From: Rothia terrae
Lineage (GTDB): Bacteria; Actinomycetota; Actinomycetes; Actinomycetales; Micrococcaceae
Reading direction: 5' to 3'
NCBI RefSeq assembly: GCF_012396615.1
Contig: NZ_JAAXPV010000001.1
Location: forward strand, 186,001-250,000
Length of the DNA stretch: 64,000 bases
Shown here piece after piece: positions 6,994 through 35,452 of the stretch. The notes under the pieces were generated by a model, which worked only from the letters and a program-made list of their open reading frames with translations, was not told where the DNA came from and did no database searches. The number at the start of each line of letters is the position of its first letter. Position 1 is the first letter of the stretch. The translations under genes were made by a program, and so were the position numbers.

Positions 6994-8406
6994 ATGTCTA
7001 ACAACCCCTTCGGTGAAAACGGCCAAGACCCGTTCGAAGAATTCTTCAAAAAACTCAGCCAAAACGGCGGCGCAAACTTCAACGCTGATGACTTGCGCGG
7101 CATGGGAATCCCGCTCGATCCCTCAATGCTCCAAGGCATCTTTTCCCAGTTCACCAATATGATGAACGGGCAGGGTGAGGACGGTAGCGTCAACTGGGAT
7201 ATGGCTCGCCAGCACGCGCGTCAGACTGTTGCAGCTAAAAACGATCCTTCAGTCACCGCCAACCAGAAATCAGCGGTACGCGACGCATCTCAACTAGCAG
7301 ATTTGTGGCTTGACCCCGTCGTTGAATTCTCACGCCCCGACTACGCCACCGAAAGCTGGTCACGCTCAGAATGGGTAGAGAACTCATTCGACACCTGGAC
7401 CGAAATCGCAAGCCCCGTCGCTGAAGAGACCACCAACGCTATGAACGAGTCCATTCAGCAGCAGATCCCCGAAGAAATGAAGGGAATGCTCGGTGGCGGT
7501 AATCTGCTCGGCGGTATCGGCTCCATGATGTTTGGCATGCAGGTCGGCTCAGGAGTTGCCCAGCTAGCGCAAGAAGTTCTCTCTACCAACGACATCGGCA
7601 TCCCACTGATCTCAGGACGCAGCGCGCTACTACCCGACGCCATCAAGTCCTTCACCGACGATCTAGAAATCCCAGCCCAGGAAGTCATGCTCTACCTGGC
7701 TGTTCGTGAAGCTGCCCTCGTTCGTCTGCACAAGGCAAACCCCTGGCTACGCGAAGACATCATGAGCCTCATCAAGCGCTTTGCCCGCGGTATCCACGTA
7801 GACATCGAACGCATCCAATCGCAGGCAGTTGAGATTGACCTTGATTCACTTAATCCCGAAAACCTGCAAGAAATCTTCGGTGCCGAAATGTTCGAACCCC
7901 AGCATACCGAGGACCAGCAACTAGCGCTCGATCGCATCGAAAACCTGCTAGCGCTCATTGATGGCTGGGCAACAGTGGTCACCGAACAAGCAACCAAGAA
8001 CCTGCCCAGTTCATCACGCATGAGCGAAGCAATGGCTCGACGACGCGCATCCGGCGGCCCCGTTCAGCACGTTTTCCAGGGCCTACTGGGCCTCAAAGTG
8101 CAACCCCGAAAGTTCCGTGAAGCAACCGATTTCTGGCGCACCTACGAATCAGAACACGGCGCAGTAGCACGCGATGGACTCTGGGAAGCACCCGAAAATC
8201 TGCCCACCAGCGAAGAAATGGATAACGCTCAAGCATTCGAAGAACGCAGCGAATTCCTCAACGCATCCGATGATGAGTTCGATGCAGCGCTTGAGAAACT
8301 TCTGGCAGGCGGATATGACGAGCCCGCGGAGGGCAGCTCCGATGAGAAAAAGACTGACGAGGACTCAGGCGAAGAAAAGCCTGAGGACGGTCCTCAAGAA
8401 AAATAA
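6994..8406 (+). CDS. DUF2342 family protein (putative zinc-dependent metalloprotease/hydrolase)
   Basis: A 470-aa protein of the actinobacterial DUF2342/TIGR03624 family, which databases label a zinc-dependent metalloprotease or coenzyme F420 biosynthesis-associated protein. I do not see an HExxH motif, so the enzymatic label is family knowledge rather than something the residues prove. Conserved family segments are visible as REAALVRLHKANPWLRED, RFARGIHVDIERIQ and LLALIDGWATVV. The N terminus is Asn/Gly rich, and the last 40 residues are an acidic Glu/Asp/Lys tail. ATG 6994 has a good ribosome site (AAAGGTGCACA). It is divergent from the PDZ protease, as in mycobacteria (Rv3194c/Rv3195). Confidence 0.85.
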   Translation: MSNNPFGENGQDPFEEFFKKLSQNGGANFNADDLRGMGIPLDPSMLQGIFSQFTNMMNGQGEDGSVNWDMARQHARQTVAAKNDPSVTANQKSAVRDASQLADLWLDPVVEFSRPDYATESWSRSEWVENSFDTWTEIASPVAEETTNAMNESIQQQIPEEMKGMLGGGNLLGGIGSMMFGMQVGSGVAQLAQEVLSTNDIGIPLISGRSALLPDAIKSFTDDLEIPAQEVMLYLAVREAALVRLHKANPWLREDIMSLIKRFARGIHVDIERIQSQAVEIDLDSLNPENLQEIFGAEMFEPQHTEDQQLALDRIENLLALIDGWATVVTEQATKNLPSSSRMSEAMARRRASGGPVQHVFQGLLGLKVQPRKFREATDFWRTYESEHGAVARDGLWEAPENLPTSEEMDNAQAFEERSEFLNASDDEFDAALEKLLAGGYDEPAEGSSDEKKTDEDSGEEKPEDGPQEK

Positions 8407-8447: not shown

Positions 8448-8546
8448 GATGCGCAAGTCGCCAGCTGGCATCGGGTCTGGCGTGAATCACGGTGAGCGCC
8501 CCAGCGCGAATCCGTGAGAGGGACTGCTGGCGACGGCGCATCTTTT
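8448..8546 (+). ncRNA. Structured intergenic element, copy A (unidentified RNA candidate)
   Basis: A long imperfect stem: GATGCGC (8448-8454) pairs with GCGCATC (8536-8542), and GTCGCCAGC (8457-8465) pairs with GCTGGCGAC (8526-8534). Inside are TGGC...GGGTCTGGCGTGAATC and an inner hairpin CACGG-TGA-GCGC-CCCA-GCGC-GAAT-CCGTG, whose internal loop has facing GA steps, then AGAGGGACT. A T run follows directly (8543-8546), with more T at 8552-8556. A second copy at 33853-33928 keeps the loops but has different, still paired stems. The element lies between two convergent genes, so it regulates no downstream plus-strand gene. It might be a stand-alone small RNA or a dispersed repeat. No convincing promoter is seen and it matches no RNA family I know. 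Confidence 0.45.
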
Positions 8547-8580: not shown

Positions 8581-8625
8581 ACAAATGCCGGGAACATCCC
8601 CTTCACGGGTGTTCCCGGCATTTGT
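8581..8625. terminator. Bidirectional terminator hairpin
   Basis: A 16-bp perfect stem, ACAAATGCCGGGAACA (8581-8596) with its complement at 8610-8625, plus a CCC/GGG extension in the loop. It sits between the convergent DUF2342 and DUF45 genes. There is no long T run, which is common for actinobacterial terminators. Confidence 0.7.
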
Positions 8626-8682: not shown

Positions 8683-9285
8683 CTAGCTCTCTTGACGGTG
8701 CTGAAAACTCACACCGTCCAAGAATCCTTGCGCTTTTTCAAGGTGAGGGTAGCGTTTTTCGAGGGCTTTGAACTGCGGCCCGTGGTCCAGGTGCATAAAG
8801 TGGCAGAGTTCGTGGTGTAGCACGTAGTCCACCACGTACTCGGGTGCGCCCTGGATCATATGAGAGATGCGGATGCGCGAGGTCGCCGGGGTTGCCGAAC
8901 CCCAGCGGGTATTTTGGTTGGTGACCCAGCGAATTTCATCGGGCAGGCTGGTTTCGGGCAGATATGTGTCAATAAGGTATTGAGCGCGTTCGACCAGATA
9001 GGCATCGCTGGAGAACTTGCGTTTGCGTTGCCCTTGCTGTTGCGCTCGCGCCATAATTCTGGGTGCCAGTTGCTGAAGATATTCTTCAATATCGTGCTTG
9101 GTAGAGGATGCTGGCACGAGTAGCCGCAGACTGCCATCGGGGTTCATGGCTCCGCTAACTGTCTTGGTACGACGCGATGAACGCACAATTTCAACGGCAG
9201 GATGCTCAGCTGTGGCATCCCACCACTCAGTTCTCGTGTTCCTAGTGCGAGGTGTACCGGTGCGAGAAGCAGTTTTTCGCGGCAT
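8683..9285 (-). CDS. DUF45/YgjP-type zinc metallopeptidase-like protein
   Basis: A 200-aa protein ending in the DUF45 signature HHELCHFMHLDHGPQF, with the two His and Glu of an HExxH zinc site and a third His downstream, followed by KRYPHLEKA. The N-terminal half is basic and of the type that precedes this domain in M48-like YgjP proteins. I place the start at ATG 9285, not at the longer open frame reaching 9384, because AGGTAGGG stands just upstream and the longer frame would run into the uvrD2 coding sequence. It begins eight bases after the uvrD2 stop, so the two are likely co-transcribed. Confidence 0.88.
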   Translation of the reverse strand: MPRKTASRTGTPRTRNTRTEWWDATAEHPAVEIVRSSRRTKTVSGAMNPDGSLRLLVPASSTKHDIEEYLQQLAPRIMARAQQQGQRKRKFSSDAYLVERAQYLIDTYLPETSLPDEIRWVTNQNTRWGSATPATSRIRISHMIQGAPEYVVDYVLHHELCHFMHLDHGPQFKALEKRYPHLEKAQGFLDGVSFQHRQES

Positions 9286-9293
9286 CTGTTGCC

Positions 9294-11120
9294 CTACCTG
9301 TACATATTCTTGGGTGCAAGGGTATCTAAGAAGCGCGAGCGTTTGCGGTTGGCGCGGCCTCCGGGGGTGCGCGATAGCGACCACGAGAAGGTGATGTATT
9401 TGCGTGCGCGGGTGATGCCTACGTAGAGCAGGCGGCGTTCTTCATCGATTTCGTCGCTTGTTTTGGCGAAGGAGATAGGCATCAGCCCTTCGTTGAGTCC
9501 GCAGAGGTAGACCGCGTCCCATTCCAGGCCTTTAGCGGAGTGCAGCGATGCTAACGTGATGCCGTCCATGCTGGGTGCATCTTGGTTTTGAAGACGCTGG
9601 GCGAGGTGGGCTGCGAATTCGTGCAGGCTAAAGACTTGAGGGAGTTCGCTGGCGTTGTTTTCGCGTGCTTGGGCGCGTTCTTTTTCGCGGGTGGCGTTGA
9701 GCGAATCCGCCATGGAGACCAGGGCCGCGAGTGACTCCCATTTTGCGCGTACTGCGCCGCTAGATGCGGGAGCTTGATCGGAGTATCCCAAAGATTTGAG
9801 GACATCGCGTACTAGTTGCGGGGTTTTTTCGTCTGTTTGGGCGTTGGCTGAATTGCGCAGCAAGGTCATTGCGTTACGAACCTCGGGACGGGCAAAGAAC
9901 TGCTCGGCACCGCGCAGCTGGTAGTGCACACCGATTTCTGAGAGTGCTTGTTCCAGTACTGCCGACTGCGCGTTGGTTCTAAACAGTACGGCAATCTCTG
10001 ATGCGGGAATTTCATTGTGGTGGATGAGTTCTTTAATGTCTCGGGCGATGCGGTGCGCTTCGTCTTCGTCGTCTGCTGCCTCAATCCAGTCAGCGTCCGG
10101 CCCTTTACCTCGTTGCGAGACTAGTTCGAGGGGCTGAGCCCATGCGCCGGGTGTTGAATCTTTGCCGGGCTTGCGCGCTTTGAGTAGGTTGTTAGCGAGC
10201 TCTACCACGGTGTGAGTGGAGCGGTAGTCGCGCACGAGTTTGACCACGTTGGCGTTACGGTGGCGACGTTTGAAGTCCATGAGAAACCGACTGGTTGCGC
10301 CGGTAAATGAGTAAATGGTCTGCGACGCATCGCCCACAACGCAGACGTCATCGCGTCCGCCCATCCATACGTTGAGCAGACGTTGTTGAAGAGGTGAAAC
10401 GTCCTGGTATTCATCAACCACAAAGTGACGGTACTGAGCGCGAACGGCGGCGGCAATGGTTTCGTCTTCTTCTAAGATGCCCACTGTCAGCATGAGTACA
10501 TCTTCAAAGTCGATGATGTGTCGTTCGTCTTTGAGTTCTTCGTAAGTGCGGTAGAGACGCACCATGTTGATGGGCGTGATGTCGTTAGGTAGCGCGCGGT
10601 CAGCTAGATGCGGCATCAGGGTATCGGGGGTGAGCATTTTGACTTTTGCCCACTCAATTTCGCCGGCAAGATCTCGAATAGTAGCGCGGTCTGTTGACAG
10701 GCGCAGACGGTTGGCTGCCTCGGTGATGAGTTGTGCTTTGTGGGGGATGATGGTGGGCGGTGTGCCGCCCACAGCTTGGGGCCAGAAGTACTGAAGCTGA
10801 CGCAGTGCCGCCGAGTGGAAGGTTCGTGCTTGCACGCCAACGGCGCCGAGCTGGCGTAGACGCACGCGCATCTCGTCAGCTGCACGCGTGGTAAAAGTCA
10901 ATGCAAGAACTCGTTGGGGAACGTAGCGTCCGATGGCAATACCGTAGGCAATACGATGCGTGATTGCGCGGGTTTTACCGGTGCCCGCGCCCGCTAAAAC
11001 ACACATAGGCCCATCAAGTTCGGTGGCGACGCGTCGCTGCTCCGGGTCAAGGCCCTCAAGGATTTGTTCTGGGCTGGGAGCGCCTGCGGTGGGTAAAGCG
11101 GTGGTTACCTGCTGTGACAT
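9294..11120 (-). CDS. uvrD2: ATP-dependent DNA helicase, UvrD2-like (SF1A)
   Basis: A 608-aa 3'-5' superfamily 1 helicase. The Walker A is AGAGTGKT at residues 43-50, motif II is VVDEYQDVSPLQ, the QTIYSFTGA segment is motif III, and motif VI is LLYVGITRARK close to the C terminus. Gene order (nudC upstream, DUF45 and DUF2342 genes downstream) agrees with mycobacterial UvrD2. The protein stops soon after motif VI, so the HRDC domain and tetracysteine region of mycobacterial UvrD2 are absent. ATG 11120 has AGGGGCGCAT just before it. The likely role is repair of nicked or forked DNA, inferred from the family. Confidence 0.9.
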   Translation of the reverse strand: MSQQVTTALPTAGAPSPEQILEGLDPEQRRVATELDGPMCVLAGAGTGKTRAITHRIAYGIAIGRYVPQRVLALTFTTRAADEMRVRLRQLGAVGVQARTFHSAALRQLQYFWPQAVGGTPPTIIPHKAQLITEAANRLRLSTDRATIRDLAGEIEWAKVKMLTPDTLMPHLADRALPNDITPINMVRLYRTYEELKDERHIIDFEDVLMLTVGILEEDETIAAAVRAQYRHFVVDEYQDVSPLQQRLLNVWMGGRDDVCVVGDASQTIYSFTGATSRFLMDFKRRHRNANVVKLVRDYRSTHTVVELANNLLKARKPGKDSTPGAWAQPLELVSQRGKGPDADWIEAADDEDEAHRIARDIKELIHHNEIPASEIAVLFRTNAQSAVLEQALSEIGVHYQLRGAEQFFARPEVRNAMTLLRNSANAQTDEKTPQLVRDVLKSLGYSDQAPASSGAVRAKWESLAALVSMADSLNATREKERAQARENNASELPQVFSLHEFAAHLAQRLQNQDAPSMDGITLASLHSAKGLEWDAVYLCGLNEGLMPISFAKTSDEIDEERRLLYVGITRARKYITFSWSLSRTPGGRANRKRSRFLDTLAPKNMYR

Positions 11121-13771: not shown

Positions 13772-13827
13772 AGACTTATTCATAAGCGTCTAAAACCCCT
13801 GCGCACCTGAGCTTCTGTTGATCTCTG

Positions 13828-32439: not shown

Positions 32440-33552
32440 TTACTTCTTTGTGTTCGTATGGATGTATGAAACGAGATCGGTGAGAACCTGAGGGTCGGTG
32501 CTCGGCGGTACGCCGTGACCGAGATTAGCGATGTGAGTCGGAGCTGCCTGAGCTGACTCAAGCACCTGGTCGACGTGCGCGAACAGGGCTTCACTTCCCG
32601 AGGCAAGCAGCGCGGGGTCGATGTTGCCCTGAAGAGGGATGCCGCCGCCCAGTCGACGGTTAGCTTCGGAGAGGCTCAGTCGGTAGTCAACGCCCATGAC
32701 GTCGGCGCCAGCCTCATGCATTGCGGGTAGAAGTTCCGCGGTGCCTGTTCCAAAGTGGATGCGGGGAACACCGAATTCTTCGACCATCGACAGCGCGGTT
32801 GCTGAGTGCTCCTGCACAAATCGGCGGTAGTCGGCCTCACCTAAAGAACCTGCCCAGGAATCAAAGAGCTGAACTGCTGATGCGCCAGCTTCAATCTGAG
32901 CACGCAGGAACTGGCCTGAGGTACGAGCAGCCCACGCGGCTAGTTTTGCCCACGCCTCAGGGTTCGCGTGCATCATGGTGCGCGGTTTGAGGTGATCGCG
33001 TGAGGGGCCGCCTTCTACCATGTAGGCCGCGACGGTAAAGGGAGCGCCTGCAAAGCCAATAAGCGGGGTAGACCCAAGCTGCTCGACGGTGTTAGACACA
33101 GCTTCGCGGATAACATCAAGAGCAGAGTCTTCAAGTTCAGGTAACTTATCGATATCGCTCATGCTATCGATTGCCACATCAAGCACGGGGCCACGACCGG
33201 GCACGATATCAACGTTGACGCCGGCAAGCTTCATCGGTACCACAATGTCCGAGAAGAAAATTCCGGCATCCACCTGGTGACGGCGCACGGGCTGTACCGT
33301 AATTTCAGCAGCCAATTCAGGGTTCAGGCAGGAGTCCAGCATCGGAATACCTTCGCGTACCTTACGGTACTCAGGTAGCGAGCGTCCTGCCTGACGCATA
33401 AACCACACGGGTGTGTGTGCGGAGGCGCGCCCCGTCAGAGCTTGCAACATTGCGGAATCCGCGGTGTTCGCCGCGCGCAGTGGATGCTGCGGTGAAAGCA
33501 GTGAGAGATGTGCATCCGTCAGTAGCGGACGCTGGTTTAAAGAATTAGGCAT
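32440..33552 (-). CDS. hemE: Uroporphyrinogen decarboxylase
   Basis: A 370-aa enzyme removing four carboxylates from uroporphyrinogen III to give coproporphyrinogen III. Conserved segments are PVWFMRQAGRSLPEYR, LIGFAGAPFTVAAYMVEGG and NLGHGVPPSTDPQVL. It is the first gene of the leftward heme operon. The start is uncertain: the frame is open to a GTG at 33594, but ATG 33552 (MPNSLNQRPLL) fits homologues best. It is preceded by CACAAT seven bases upstream, a weak -10-like box that would make the message leaderless. No Shine-Dalgarno is visible. Confidence 0.95.
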   Translation of the reverse strand: MPNSLNQRPLLTDAHLSLLSPQHPLRAANTADSAMLQALTGRASAHTPVWFMRQAGRSLPEYRKVREGIPMLDSCLNPELAAEITVQPVRRHQVDAGIFFSDIVVPMKLAGVNVDIVPGRGPVLDVAIDSMSDIDKLPELEDSALDVIREAVSNTVEQLGSTPLIGFAGAPFTVAAYMVEGGPSRDHLKPRTMMHANPEAWAKLAAWAARTSGQFLRAQIEAGASAVQLFDSWAGSLGEADYRRFVQEHSATALSMVEEFGVPRIHFGTGTAELLPAMHEAGADVMGVDYRLSLSEANRRLGGGIPLQGNIDPALLASGSEALFAHVDQVLESAQAAPTHIANLGHGVPPSTDPQVLTDLVSYIHTNTKK

Positions 33553-34162
33553 ATTCACCATTGTGCCAATTAATGAGCTGAAGTTTGCAGACACAGTGTC
33601 ACCGAAAGTACCGGCATGGCGTTTTGTCCCCTGCCTCGCAGGTTTTCGGACCCTTCATACATGCGTCCTGACAAAAATTTAGGTAATGCTTCAGACGCTC
33701 TTATCTCACAAATTAACGGCACTTTCATCATCAATGTCTTATGCTTACAAAGGGCGAATCACCTCAGGGACAAGCAGTGCACTCGCCCGTTGCTCTTTTT
33801 GCAAACGGTCTTAAAGACTTCTCTCGGTGACAATCGGGCGGCAAAAACAACGGGCGGCAAACTGGCTGGGTCTGGCATGAATCGTCCTGGGAGCGAAGCG
33901 AACCGGGAGAGAAGGACTGTTTGCCGCCGCTGTGTTTGCGAAGGACTTTACACTCCCGATAAATCGATCCCTAGCATCTACATACGATAGCTACCCGCAG
34001 AGCACGTAAGAATCCCCTTATTCCTTCACTATTTTTAGCAATCTGCACCCCACCTCGCTCCCTCTTATGGGTACAGCATTCCCTGTATTAGCTATCTAAT
34101 AGGGCAGAACCCAAAATATTTGATACTGTTGATGAGTTCTCGAAATAAGAACCTAAATTTTC
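33553..34162. other. 610-bp divergent intergenic region between hemE and hemA
   Basis: This is the only gene-free stretch over 300 bp. It must hold the promoters for both heme transcription units. It contains structured element copy B (33853-33928) and, upstream of it, CGCCCGTTG (33784-33792), which is complementary to CAACGGGCG (33848-33856). GATACT near 34120 and CTAAT near 34097 are possible -10 parts for hemA. There is no convincing open reading frame with a ribosome site, and no obvious operator. Confidence 0.6.
33853..33928 (+). ncRNA. Structured intergenic element, copy B (unidentified RNA candidate)
   Basis: GGCGGCAAAC (33853-33862) pairs with GTTTGCCGCC (33919-33928). The inside reads TGGCT-GGGTCTGGCATGAATC, then an inner hairpin (CTGG-GAGC-GAA-GCGAA-CCGG region, 33887-33906), then GAGAGAAGGACT. 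The motifs GGGTCTGGC(A/G)TGAATC, GAGC.../...GCGAA and GGACT are shared with copy A at 8448-8546, while the paired arms differ in sequence. This is what conserved RNA structure looks like. It points the same way as hemA and ends 234 bp before it, so it could lie in the hemA leader, but copy A is not upstream of any gene in its direction. Confidence 0.5.
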
Positions 34163-35452
34163 ATGACAATATTTACCCTTGTAGCATCGCACCAGTCAGT
34201 TGACTTAGAAACCGTTGCCCAGTTGAGCAACGGTGTTATTGGTCTACCTGAATATTTGCGTGAAGAAAATATTGATGGATCTGTGGTCTTATCAACGTGC
34301 AACCGTCTTGAACTTTACGTTGAGGTAACCACCCCACCTTCTTCAACCGAGCAATTTATTGCTACTCAGGTAGCAACTATCAGCGAAAAGATATTTGATT
34401 ATATTGCTCGCACGTCATCGCTTTCTTTGTCGGTTGTAGCTACCAGCTTTGAAACATTTATCGATGACAGAGCCGCGCACCACCTCTTTACGGTGGCATC
34501 CGGCCTGGAATCGGCTGTTGTCGGTGAGCGCGAAATTACCGGTCAGGTACGACGCGCTATTTCAACCGCTCAAGACGATGGCTACGCTACGGGTAATCTG
34601 GTACGACTTTTCGACAGGGGCGCGCACACCGCTCGTCAGGTGGGTCAGCAAACTGCCCTGGGTTCACGTGGACGCTCGGTTGTCTCCGTGGCTCTTGATT
34701 TGGCTGACGAAGTTTCTGACAGCGATTGGGCACACCGCACCGCTCTGGTCTTCGGCACCGGTGCATACGCGGGCGCCACGATGGCAGCTCTACGCGATCG
34801 AGGATGCACCGAAATTTATGTGTATTCCCGTTCAAACCGCGCAGAAACGTTCACCGAAAAACGCGGCGGCTCCCCTGTTCCTCTTGATCAGCTACATCCG
34901 GCCATGGAAAAAGCTGATGTCATCATTGGTTGCTCGGGAGGTTCCACTCCCCTGCACCCCAACGAAATTCCTGCGGGCAAGCGCGTCATTCTAGACCTTG
35001 CCCTCACCCGAGATTTTGATCCCGCTGTGGCTGACATGCCAGAGATAGACCTCATCACCCTGGAGTCTGTCCGATTGGCTGCCCCCGAGGAAACAGCGGA
35101 ATCAGTAGAAACGGCACGCACCATCGTTAACGCCGCCAGCGCAGACTTTGCGCAAAAAGAAAAGGCGAGAAACGTGGATGCTGCTATCGTTGCTCTCCGA
35201 GCACACACAATGTCTGTTCTTGAAACCGAACTGCAAAAAGTTCGCGGTCAGTTTGGTTGCGGCGCCGCCGCAGAACAGGTGGAGTTTGCAATGCGTCGCA
35301 TGGTGAAGTCTTTGCTTCACACCCCAACAGTACGCGCGCGTGAGCTAGCTCAAGAAGGTCGCACAGCAGATTATATTGCTGCACTCGATGCTCTCTACGG
35401 CATTGATGTTCAGCAGCCCCAAGTCTCTGAGCAGAAGCGTAACGCTTCTTAG
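34163..35452 (+). CDS. hemA: Glutamyl-tRNA reductase
   Basis: A 429-aa NADPH enzyme reducing glutamyl-tRNA to glutamate-1-semialdehyde, the first and usually controlled step of the C5 heme pathway. The catalytic Cys is in LSTCNRLELYVEV. The VVGEREITGQVRRA segment, the Rossmann region (TALVFGTGAYAGATM) and the C-terminal dimerisation helices are in order. ATG 34163 has no clear Shine-Dalgarno. It is divergent from the hemE-hemL operon, so one intergenic region could control the whole pathway. Confidence 0.96.
   Translation: MTIFTLVASHQSVDLETVAQLSNGVIGLPEYLREENIDGSVVLSTCNRLELYVEVTTPPSSTEQFIATQVATISEKIFDYIARTSSLSLSVVATSFETFIDDRAAHHLFTVASGLESAVVGEREITGQVRRAISTAQDDGYATGNLVRLFDRGAHTARQVGQQTALGSRGRSVVSVALDLADEVSDSDWAHRTALVFGTGAYAGATMAALRDRGCTEIYVYSRSNRAETFTEKRGGSPVPLDQLHPAMEKADVIIGCSGGSTPLHPNEIPAGKRVILDLALTRDFDPAVADMPEIDLITLESVRLAAPEETAESVETARTIVNAASADFAQKEKARNVDAAIVALRAHTMSVLETELQKVRGQFGCGAAAEQVEFAMRRMVKSLLHTPTVRARELAQEGRTADYIAALDALYGIDVQQPQVSEQKRNAS

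Follow-up and report, generated by a model that had tools for sequence, protein, structure and literature searches.

MITEs of an IS5-like element in the genus Rothia, with an inner hairpin probably retained as an RNA structure at gene 3′ ends

We found that a dispersed, structured repeat of the genus Rothia represents a family of MITEs that belong to an IS5-like element, and our best reading, to which we assign a probability of roughly 0.6, is that the inner hairpin of this MITE is retained as an RNA structure at the 3′ ends of genes. The original prediction had described a two-copy structured intergenic element in the window, by which we mean the whole 64,000-nucleotide stretch of a Rothia terrae contig (NZ_JAAXPV010000001.1) that was analysed. 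Both copies, A and B, were found in the sequence where it had placed them, and this observation is real and the tip of a larger family; its interpretation as "a small RNA family or a mobile structured repeat" is partly supported.

Copy A is a hairpin on the forward strand (8448..8542), delineated by reading of the sequence, single-sequence folding and covariance model R1. Its proximal stem P1, the outer stem (8457-8465/8526-8534), is prolonged outward by a distal stem (8448-8454/8536-8542) that is followed by TTTT, and P1 encloses the conserved 5′ core TGGCATCGGGTCTGGCGTGAATC (8466..8488), the inner hairpin P2 (span 8488..8516, stem 8488-8492/8512-8516) and the conserved 3′ core GAGAGGGACT (8516..8525). 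P2 was read by eye, as were the tandem G.A (8494-8495/8508-8509) and the tip stem (8496-8499/8504-8507) within it. Copy B (33853..33928, forward strand) has its outer stem P1 at 33853-33862/33919-33928, the conserved 5′ core TGGCTGGGTCTGGCATGAATC at 33863..33883 and, at 33883..33918, an imperfect inner hairpin P2 together with the conserved 3′ core GAGAAGGACT. The sequences said to be shared, TGGC-(1-3 nt)-GGGTCTGGC(G/A)TGAATC and GGACT, are present in both copies. The outer stems had been described as different yet perfectly paired, and the inner stems as different and paired; the inner stem of copy B is in fact imperfect, as one G x A mismatch and one U.G pair were seen by eye and the model marks a non-standard pair too.

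Covariance model R1 matched copy A at 8450-8542 (73.7 bits) and copy B at 33846-33934 (70.8 bits), and the third-best match in the window reached only 13.8 bits. Single-sequence folding gave z values of -4.3 for copy A and -1.7 for copy B on the forward strand, and of -4.4 and -2.0 on the reverse strand; as the fold energy is clearly unusual for copy A only and the two strands are alike, energies alone prove neither an RNA nor its strand. Similarly, the 16-mer GGGTCTGGCRTGAATC, with up to three mismatches allowed, has two matches in the window, a number also reached in 34 of 100 shuffles, so that the case from the window itself is weak and the proof comes from other genomes. At Rfam gathering cut-offs the sole match in the window is a tRNA; around copy A there are four weak matches far under the cut-offs (E 0.74-5.7, 12-17 bits), and around copy B none. 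A known Rfam RNA family was therefore rejected, in keeping with the original remark that no familiar consensus was matched.

Copy A lies 3′ of a forward-strand gene (6994..8406) whose orthologues occur in further Rothia genomes and that, from its resemblance to such proteins, we take to be zinc-metalloprotease-like. Convergent with it, and facing copy A, is a reverse-strand gene (8683..9384), presumably encoding a YgjP/SprT-like metallopeptidase; a separate perfect hairpin, CAAATGCCGGGAACA/TGTTCCCGGCATTTG (8582..8624, no strand assigned), was seen by eye in the gap between copy A and this gene. Copy B lies 5′ of a forward-strand gene (34163..35452) that we assume to be hemA-like, following the earlier naming and its resemblance, and the gene divergent from it across copy B (32440-33594, reverse strand) is presumably hemE-like. 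Terminal ends of the kind described below were not recognisable at either copy (8-9 of 17 positions mismatched), and both are counted as family members because their core and fold match. A lone end-like sequence, GACTTATTCATAAGC, occurs in the window at 13773 on the forward strand, with no partner 60-1300 bp away within four mismatches. Neither window site is fixed among orthologous loci: the model matched 2 of 30 loci at site A (the window's own and that of G030) and 1 of 30 at site B, between hemE and hemA, which is the window's own. Judged by eye, a plain hairpin takes the place of copy A in many other genomes, and in G033 (L166) the site carries another long hairpin, unlike that of copy A, which includes pieces of GGAATC and GAGGG and has no model match.

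As the original prediction had proposed, relatives were searched with a covariance model, here trained on 41 copies. At E 0.001 it gave at least 719 matches in 20 of 35 Rothia genomes, with none in the other 15; at most 123 candidates were scored per genome, so all match counts are lower bounds. These are at least 82, 64, 62, 57, 54, 53 and 48 in G012, G014, G002, G033, G029, G027 and G021, at least 45, 39 and 38 in G028, G011 and G018, at least 37 in the window's own genome, at least 34 and 28 in G005 and G030, and at least 26, 22, 14, 10, 3, 2 and 1 in G024, G016, G032, G017, G007, G026 and G004. In a family-wide sample under stricter filters, 15 of 295 genomes had a match, all of them Rothia. 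The exact 16-mer occurs six times in the window's own genome and is present in 16 of 59 genomes, the window's own counted in; these 16 belong to a single genus. Its reversed form, used as a control, is present in none of the 59. A search for the 16-mer with GAGARGG in a collection of 84,980 species found 53 stretches, every one titled Rothia. Spread by viruses was rejected: the 16-mer matches 26 viral contigs, which we took as chance because the model score there is at most 23.9 bits, and a phage search gave no match to the element. Carriage by plasmids was likewise set aside; the 3.4-kb plasmid pSD9660c of Rothia sp. SD9660Na (L362) bears a 76-bp piece of the element at 1026-1101 with 86.8% identity and without a model match at E 0.1.

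We then described the fold from 116 copies at 97 hand-chosen loci, a selection from all matches. P1 (6 bp) is followed by an internal loop of 3-4 nt and by P1b (~13 bp more), after which an asymmetric internal loop, TGGCT-GGGTCTGGCRTGAAT opposite AGARGG plus three more bases, leads to P2. The tip loop with its tandem G.A, GAGC..GCGA, was present in 87 of 91 traced copies, compared with 12 of 1820 shuffles. Most core columns are 96-99% identical across the 116 copies, a conservation that is partly ascertained because copies were found via the core or the model; the columns that vary more are those of the variable first loop, of the T/G that follows GGG, of the R and of the final C. The purine at the core R and that in GAGARGG are coupled (GG 63, AA 34, AG 11, GA 5, other 3; n=116), which may reflect a tertiary contact or merely two subfamilies. 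Some copies at L037, L043, L044, L075 and L283 have an inner loop longer by roughly 45-67 nt, and the extra sequence folds into a second hairpin around CCGAGCGNGYGAGGAAA whose stems differ and still pair.

Covariation in this fold is very strong. Across the nine modelled pairs, 97.5% of 1028 cells are paired and changes on both sides were seen in all nine, amounting to 202 both-side changed cells against 50.8 ± 5.2 in shuffles and 1-40 with one strand slid. These pair counts carry the covariation beyond the two copies from which it had first been proposed. The 116-copy alignment is fitted to the model; in an unfitted alignment of 41 copies, 98.9% of cells are paired, both-side changes occur in seven of the nine pairs, and 81 cells are changed on both sides against 23.4 ± 5.0 shuffled and 0-10 slid, in agreement with the fitted reading. 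At orthologous sites, pairing is kept by changes in both arms, as in GGGGCAGGTGCCCC/GGGGCACCTGCCC of L041 compared with GGGATGAGCGCCCC/GGGGCGCTCATCCC of L070.

The evidence for mobility comes from the ends of the element. Many loci of the R. nasimurium group share a unit of ~91 bp, at roughly 90-98% identity, and outside it lie inverted ends like GAGGCTTATTCATAAGGG...CCCTTATGAATAAGCCTC. At 17 loci, core-bearing copies of 144-173 bp are bounded by GAGGCTTATTCATAAGG-like inverted repeats, where bounded copies are core-bearing end pairs 140-175 bp apart and at least two pairs of these loci represent one site in two genomes. Of the loci found by a search for the end, 30 were inspected, and many end pairs, for example in G018, lie outside that set. 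Eight of the 17 bounded copies have identical 3-bp flanks (L029 ACT, L030 CTA, L253 AAT, L319 CTT, L334 TAT, L338 ATG, L345 GTA and L352 ATA); the other nine do not. In the 30 loci selected by their ends, irrespective of the core, seven of nine pairs of MITE size contained the element according to the model, L331 and L343 having element-sized end pairs without a model match.

Core-less end pairs 892-932 bp apart were found at nine distinct loci, three of them with identical 3-bp flanks (L332, L333 and L357) and six without. Seven of these nine long pairs (892-907 bp) overlap a transposase match, the exceptions being L337 and L341. The partner transposase (L328, L329) has HTH_Tnp_4 and DDE_Tnp_4 domains, with PF13359 at about 1e-21 and both PF13359 and PF13613 above cut-off; among NCBIfam families IS5 is nearest, IS5_4 scoring 67-71 bits, under its cut-off of 140. 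At L328:745-1512 and L329:2387-2998, the end of the insertion sequence gives a neighbouring frame an in-frame ending, E-A-Y-S-stop. At E 1e-40 the transposase was matched in 18 of the 20 element-bearing genomes versus 1 of the 15 element-free ones (Fisher 7e-7), the latter being a fragment in G010; G012, the genome richest in element matches, has no transposase match at this threshold. The exact end 14-mer GCTTATTCATAAGG is in 19 of 20 element-bearing and 0 of 15 element-free genomes (5e-9), a weaker test than the transposase because the 14-mer sits inside elements too.

The element is thus short and without a transposase gene, with terminal inverted repeats, target-site duplications and ends matching an autonomous element, as in other MITEs. 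Since its ends are shared with transposase-coding insertion sequences and it co-occurs with their transposase, we conclude that these MITEs form a family belonging to an IS5-like element, whose transposase presumably moves them in trans. This transposon part of the account is well supported. REP/REPIN sequences with a RAYT were considered and rejected, as Y1_Tnp (PF01797) was found in 3 of the 35 genus genomes; it was not found in 17 of the 20 element-bearing genomes, nor in G000 or G030.

Pairing and loop persist in copies without recognisable ends. Taking an end as recognisable when at most 5 of its 17 positions are mismatched, we found both ends in 5, one in 7 and none in 103 of the 115 copies with enough flank, with mean core identities of 1.00, 0.92 and 0.975, respectively. 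The arm analysis covered the copies with a traceable core and at least 5 of 6 proximal pairs, a filter that removed 25 of the 116. Counting from the core, the arms are 83-97% paired at nt 12-22 and 52-68% paired at nt 29-36, and pairing climbs again past nt 37 in copies whose alignment extends there; beyond nt 9, arms of the same copy form 23.6 pairs on average, compared with 12.0 for arms taken from different copies.

From this pairing profile a limit of 24 nt was set before mismatches were divided by distance. Among isolated mismatches within 24 nt of the core, G.T outnumbered A.C by 56 to 15 and A.G outnumbered C.T by 30 to 2, whereas beyond 24 nt the ratios were 27:29 and 37:20. Counted once per sequence context, the inner G.T : A.C ratio is 53:15 (p 4e-6). 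Positions 1-6 are biased because the proximal-pair filter accepts G.T; at positions 7-24 alone the ratio is 50:14, divided into 36:5 for copies whose + strand would be transcribed from the upstream gene and 14:8 for copies antisense to it (Fisher 0.047). A count confined to the nine modelled pairs speaks against such an excess, with G.U 24 : A.C 15 (p 0.2). As RNA pairing tolerates G.U and not A.C, the G.T excess points to the + strand as the one transcribed, and the excess disappears beyond 24 nt, where a mutational bias ought to act as well. A.G exceeds C.T beyond 24 nt too, so not all strand bias ends there. The covariation and the strand-specific excess of G.T over A.C together support selection on an RNA fold, as the original prediction had proposed on the strength of two copies.

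We next placed the copies relative to genes, using a custom ORF caller. Convergent genes flank 41 of 116 copies, tandem genes 59 and divergent genes 6, with a further 6 copies overlapping predicted ORFs and 4 left undecided. Among gaps of at least 60 nt at these loci that lack the element, 37 are convergent, compared with 136 tandem and 63 divergent, so that copies are enriched in convergent relative to divergent gaps (p 6e-9). Copies therefore crowd at gene 3′ ends, in either orientation, and the position of copy B, before the hemA-like gene and between divergent genes, is atypical. Tandem copies are 24 sense and 35 antisense. The T run attributed to copy A does directly follow its distal stem, but it is atypical as well: copy B has no U-tract, and of the 91 traced copies 13 have TTTT at 18-45 nt to the right of the core, a spacing at which it also occurs in 7.4% of shuffles. 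U-tracts are too rare for a canonical intrinsic terminator, which we rejected.

Together, these data would fit the following account. A bounded element of ~144-173 bp with 17-bp ends is presumably mobilised in trans by an IS5-like transposase (DDE_Tnp_4). Its inner hairpin of ~105 nt, with 24-nt arms, an invariant internal loop and a tandem-G.A tip, would be retained because it folds in read-through transcripts, where, usually with no U-tract behind it, it could serve as an mRNA 3′-end structure that halts or buffers both transcription and 3′ decay between adjacent genes. The invariant loop exceeds what a stem requires, which suggests that it is probably either bound by a protein or part of a compact RNA fold. 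A transposon-born hairpin would then be tolerated, and probably used, as an mRNA 3′-end structure; an effect on termination or stability is our inference.

The strongest competitor, which we consider unlikely though far from negligible, is a purely selfish MITE, whose hairpin serves the element alone (for example, by causing less damage at the landing site) and whose pairing is kept by template switching during replication, not by selection at the level of the host. Template switching does occur: at L059, the right arm is a perfect complement of the left and the internal loop, kept in four orthologues, is gone. Hairpin-driven rearrangement is seen as well. At L283:1462-1549 and L282:2886-2976 and their orthologues, the element with its proximal arms is inverted between close relatives (G012 versus G021/G028, and G012, G002, G014 and G029 versus G021/G028), and these inversions are arm-mediated; at L283:17410-17497 and orthologues, a deletion between the arm direct repeats GAGCGCA fits the shorter alleles of several relatives, in which arm scars remain. 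Presence also differs by site and genome, as at loci A and B with their two and one model matches in 30. Template switching is strand-symmetric, however, and the G.T/A.C asymmetry is limited to the inner 24 nt; it would also erase internal loops, yet the tip motif is kept almost throughout the traced copies, and the core is intact in copies without recognisable ends.

The same comparisons bear on how the element is lost. At three sites in the R. nasimurium group, some genomes retain no more than scars of it, and it is therefore dispensable where relatives have lost copies. Clean insertion polymorphism was rejected, as at the three closely compared sites the shorter alleles are scars with arms and not pre-insertion sites. 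Given that antisense copies slightly outnumber sense ones and that the element is inverted at two sites, orientation is not fixed; like the losses, this counts against our best reading. At L296 (G014), ~1 kb replaces half an element, with an ORF that we take to resemble a DUF3800 protein, and gaps in the matches point to the same replacement in G002 (L297) and G029 (L298).

We regard as improbable that the inner domain is a chromosome-organising DNA site, whether a cruciform, a G-quadruplex or a binding site for a nucleoid protein. The core does have several G-tracts and a variable first loop, and in G030 the 26 position-known copies (of 28) leave 0.84-1.55 Mb of contig C1 (2,407,675 bp) empty, where 7.7 copies would be expected (p 1e-4, with limits picked after inspection); this element-free stretch is possibly the terminus region. 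Against this, the C, T and A between the G-tracts are conserved as well as the Gs, by which a G-quadruplex as sole cause of the core was rejected, and no preference for G.T over A.C on one strand is expected of a cruciform, least of all where that strand would be transcribed, which is where the bias is mainly found. An independent small RNA or a cis-acting riboswitch-like leader, to which the strong covariation, the invariant loop and the place of copy B upstream of hemA might point, is very improbable, as divergent genes flank 6 of 116 copies, the window's own is the one hemE-hemA locus in 30 with a model match, Rfam has no match at its cut-offs and orientation flips between relatives. Of the interpretation offered originally, the mobile repeat is supported by the terminal inverted repeats, the 3-bp duplications in 8 of 17 bounded copies, the insertion sequence with matching ends and the at least 82 matches in one genome. 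A small RNA expressed independently from a promoter of its own finds no support here, since most copies lie at gene 3′ ends, in either orientation, and two sites show inversion between relatives.

Several known repeats resemble the Rothia element in part. The bcr1 repeats of the Bacillus cereus group are group-restricted, mobile and ~155 bp long with a conserved fold; they belong to another phylum and have other ends. IS5-like insertion sequences (DDE_Tnp_4) have the 17-bp ends in common with the Rothia element but encode a transposase, and past the ends show no likeness to it by eye. According to the accessible text of two reports, Correia/NEMIS, ERIC, RUP and other bacterial MITEs are ~100-200 bp long and intergenic, with terminal inverted repeats and target duplications; long stem-loop transcripts are predicted for them, and NEMIS hairpins have been proposed as RNase III targets (PMC2229807, PMC10969869). 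The Rothia element is like them in size, terminal inverted repeats, target duplications, intergenic position and long stem-loop, and unlike them in its IS5-like ends, its occurrence in Rothia and an invariant-loop domain with covarying stems in copies whose ends are not recognisable; the term "compensat" is absent from the accessible text of PMC2229807.

Pneumococcal BOX and SPRITE are, like the Rothia element, dispersed structured repeats, and SPRITE is described in the text available as enriched near the 3′ ends of convergent genes, with co-option as a terminator suggested (PMC3049150). SPRITE has a long U-rich tract, in contrast to the Rothia element, which mostly lacks one and has a conserved internal loop; the terms "covari" and "compensat" do not occur in the accessible text of that paper. 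REP/REPIN sequences with their RAYT (Y1_Tnp; PMC2817692, PMC3116915) are also high-copy extragenic palindromes, whereas the Rothia element is larger, has MITE ends and mostly occurs in genomes in which Y1_Tnp was not found. The literature searched, mostly outside subscription journals, contained no account of this Rothia repeat family, and term searches of the accessible text of PMC4666352, PMC12306157, PMC13347742 and PMC2267715 did not show it.

Collectively, a MITE whose inner hairpin is retained as a 3′-end RNA structure suggests a once-selfish repeat that may now shape the ends of many mRNAs. A bolder version, which we offer tentatively and think rather unlikely, is that the inner domain is a new class of structured RNA carried as MITE cargo, its invariant loop being read by one protein or ligand at up to 82 or more sites per genome, mostly at gene 3′ ends, so that transposition would have spread a shared 3′-UTR regulon through the genus. 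Bacterial MITEs are usually portrayed as selfish or incidentally structured, and the Rothia family makes that question testable: pairing and loop outlast the recognisable ends, and the wobble bias indicates the transcribed strand. With hundreds of natural replicates, among them orthologous presence, inversion and deletion alleles, it offers a view of how a mobile repeat may turn into a 3′-end RNA element.
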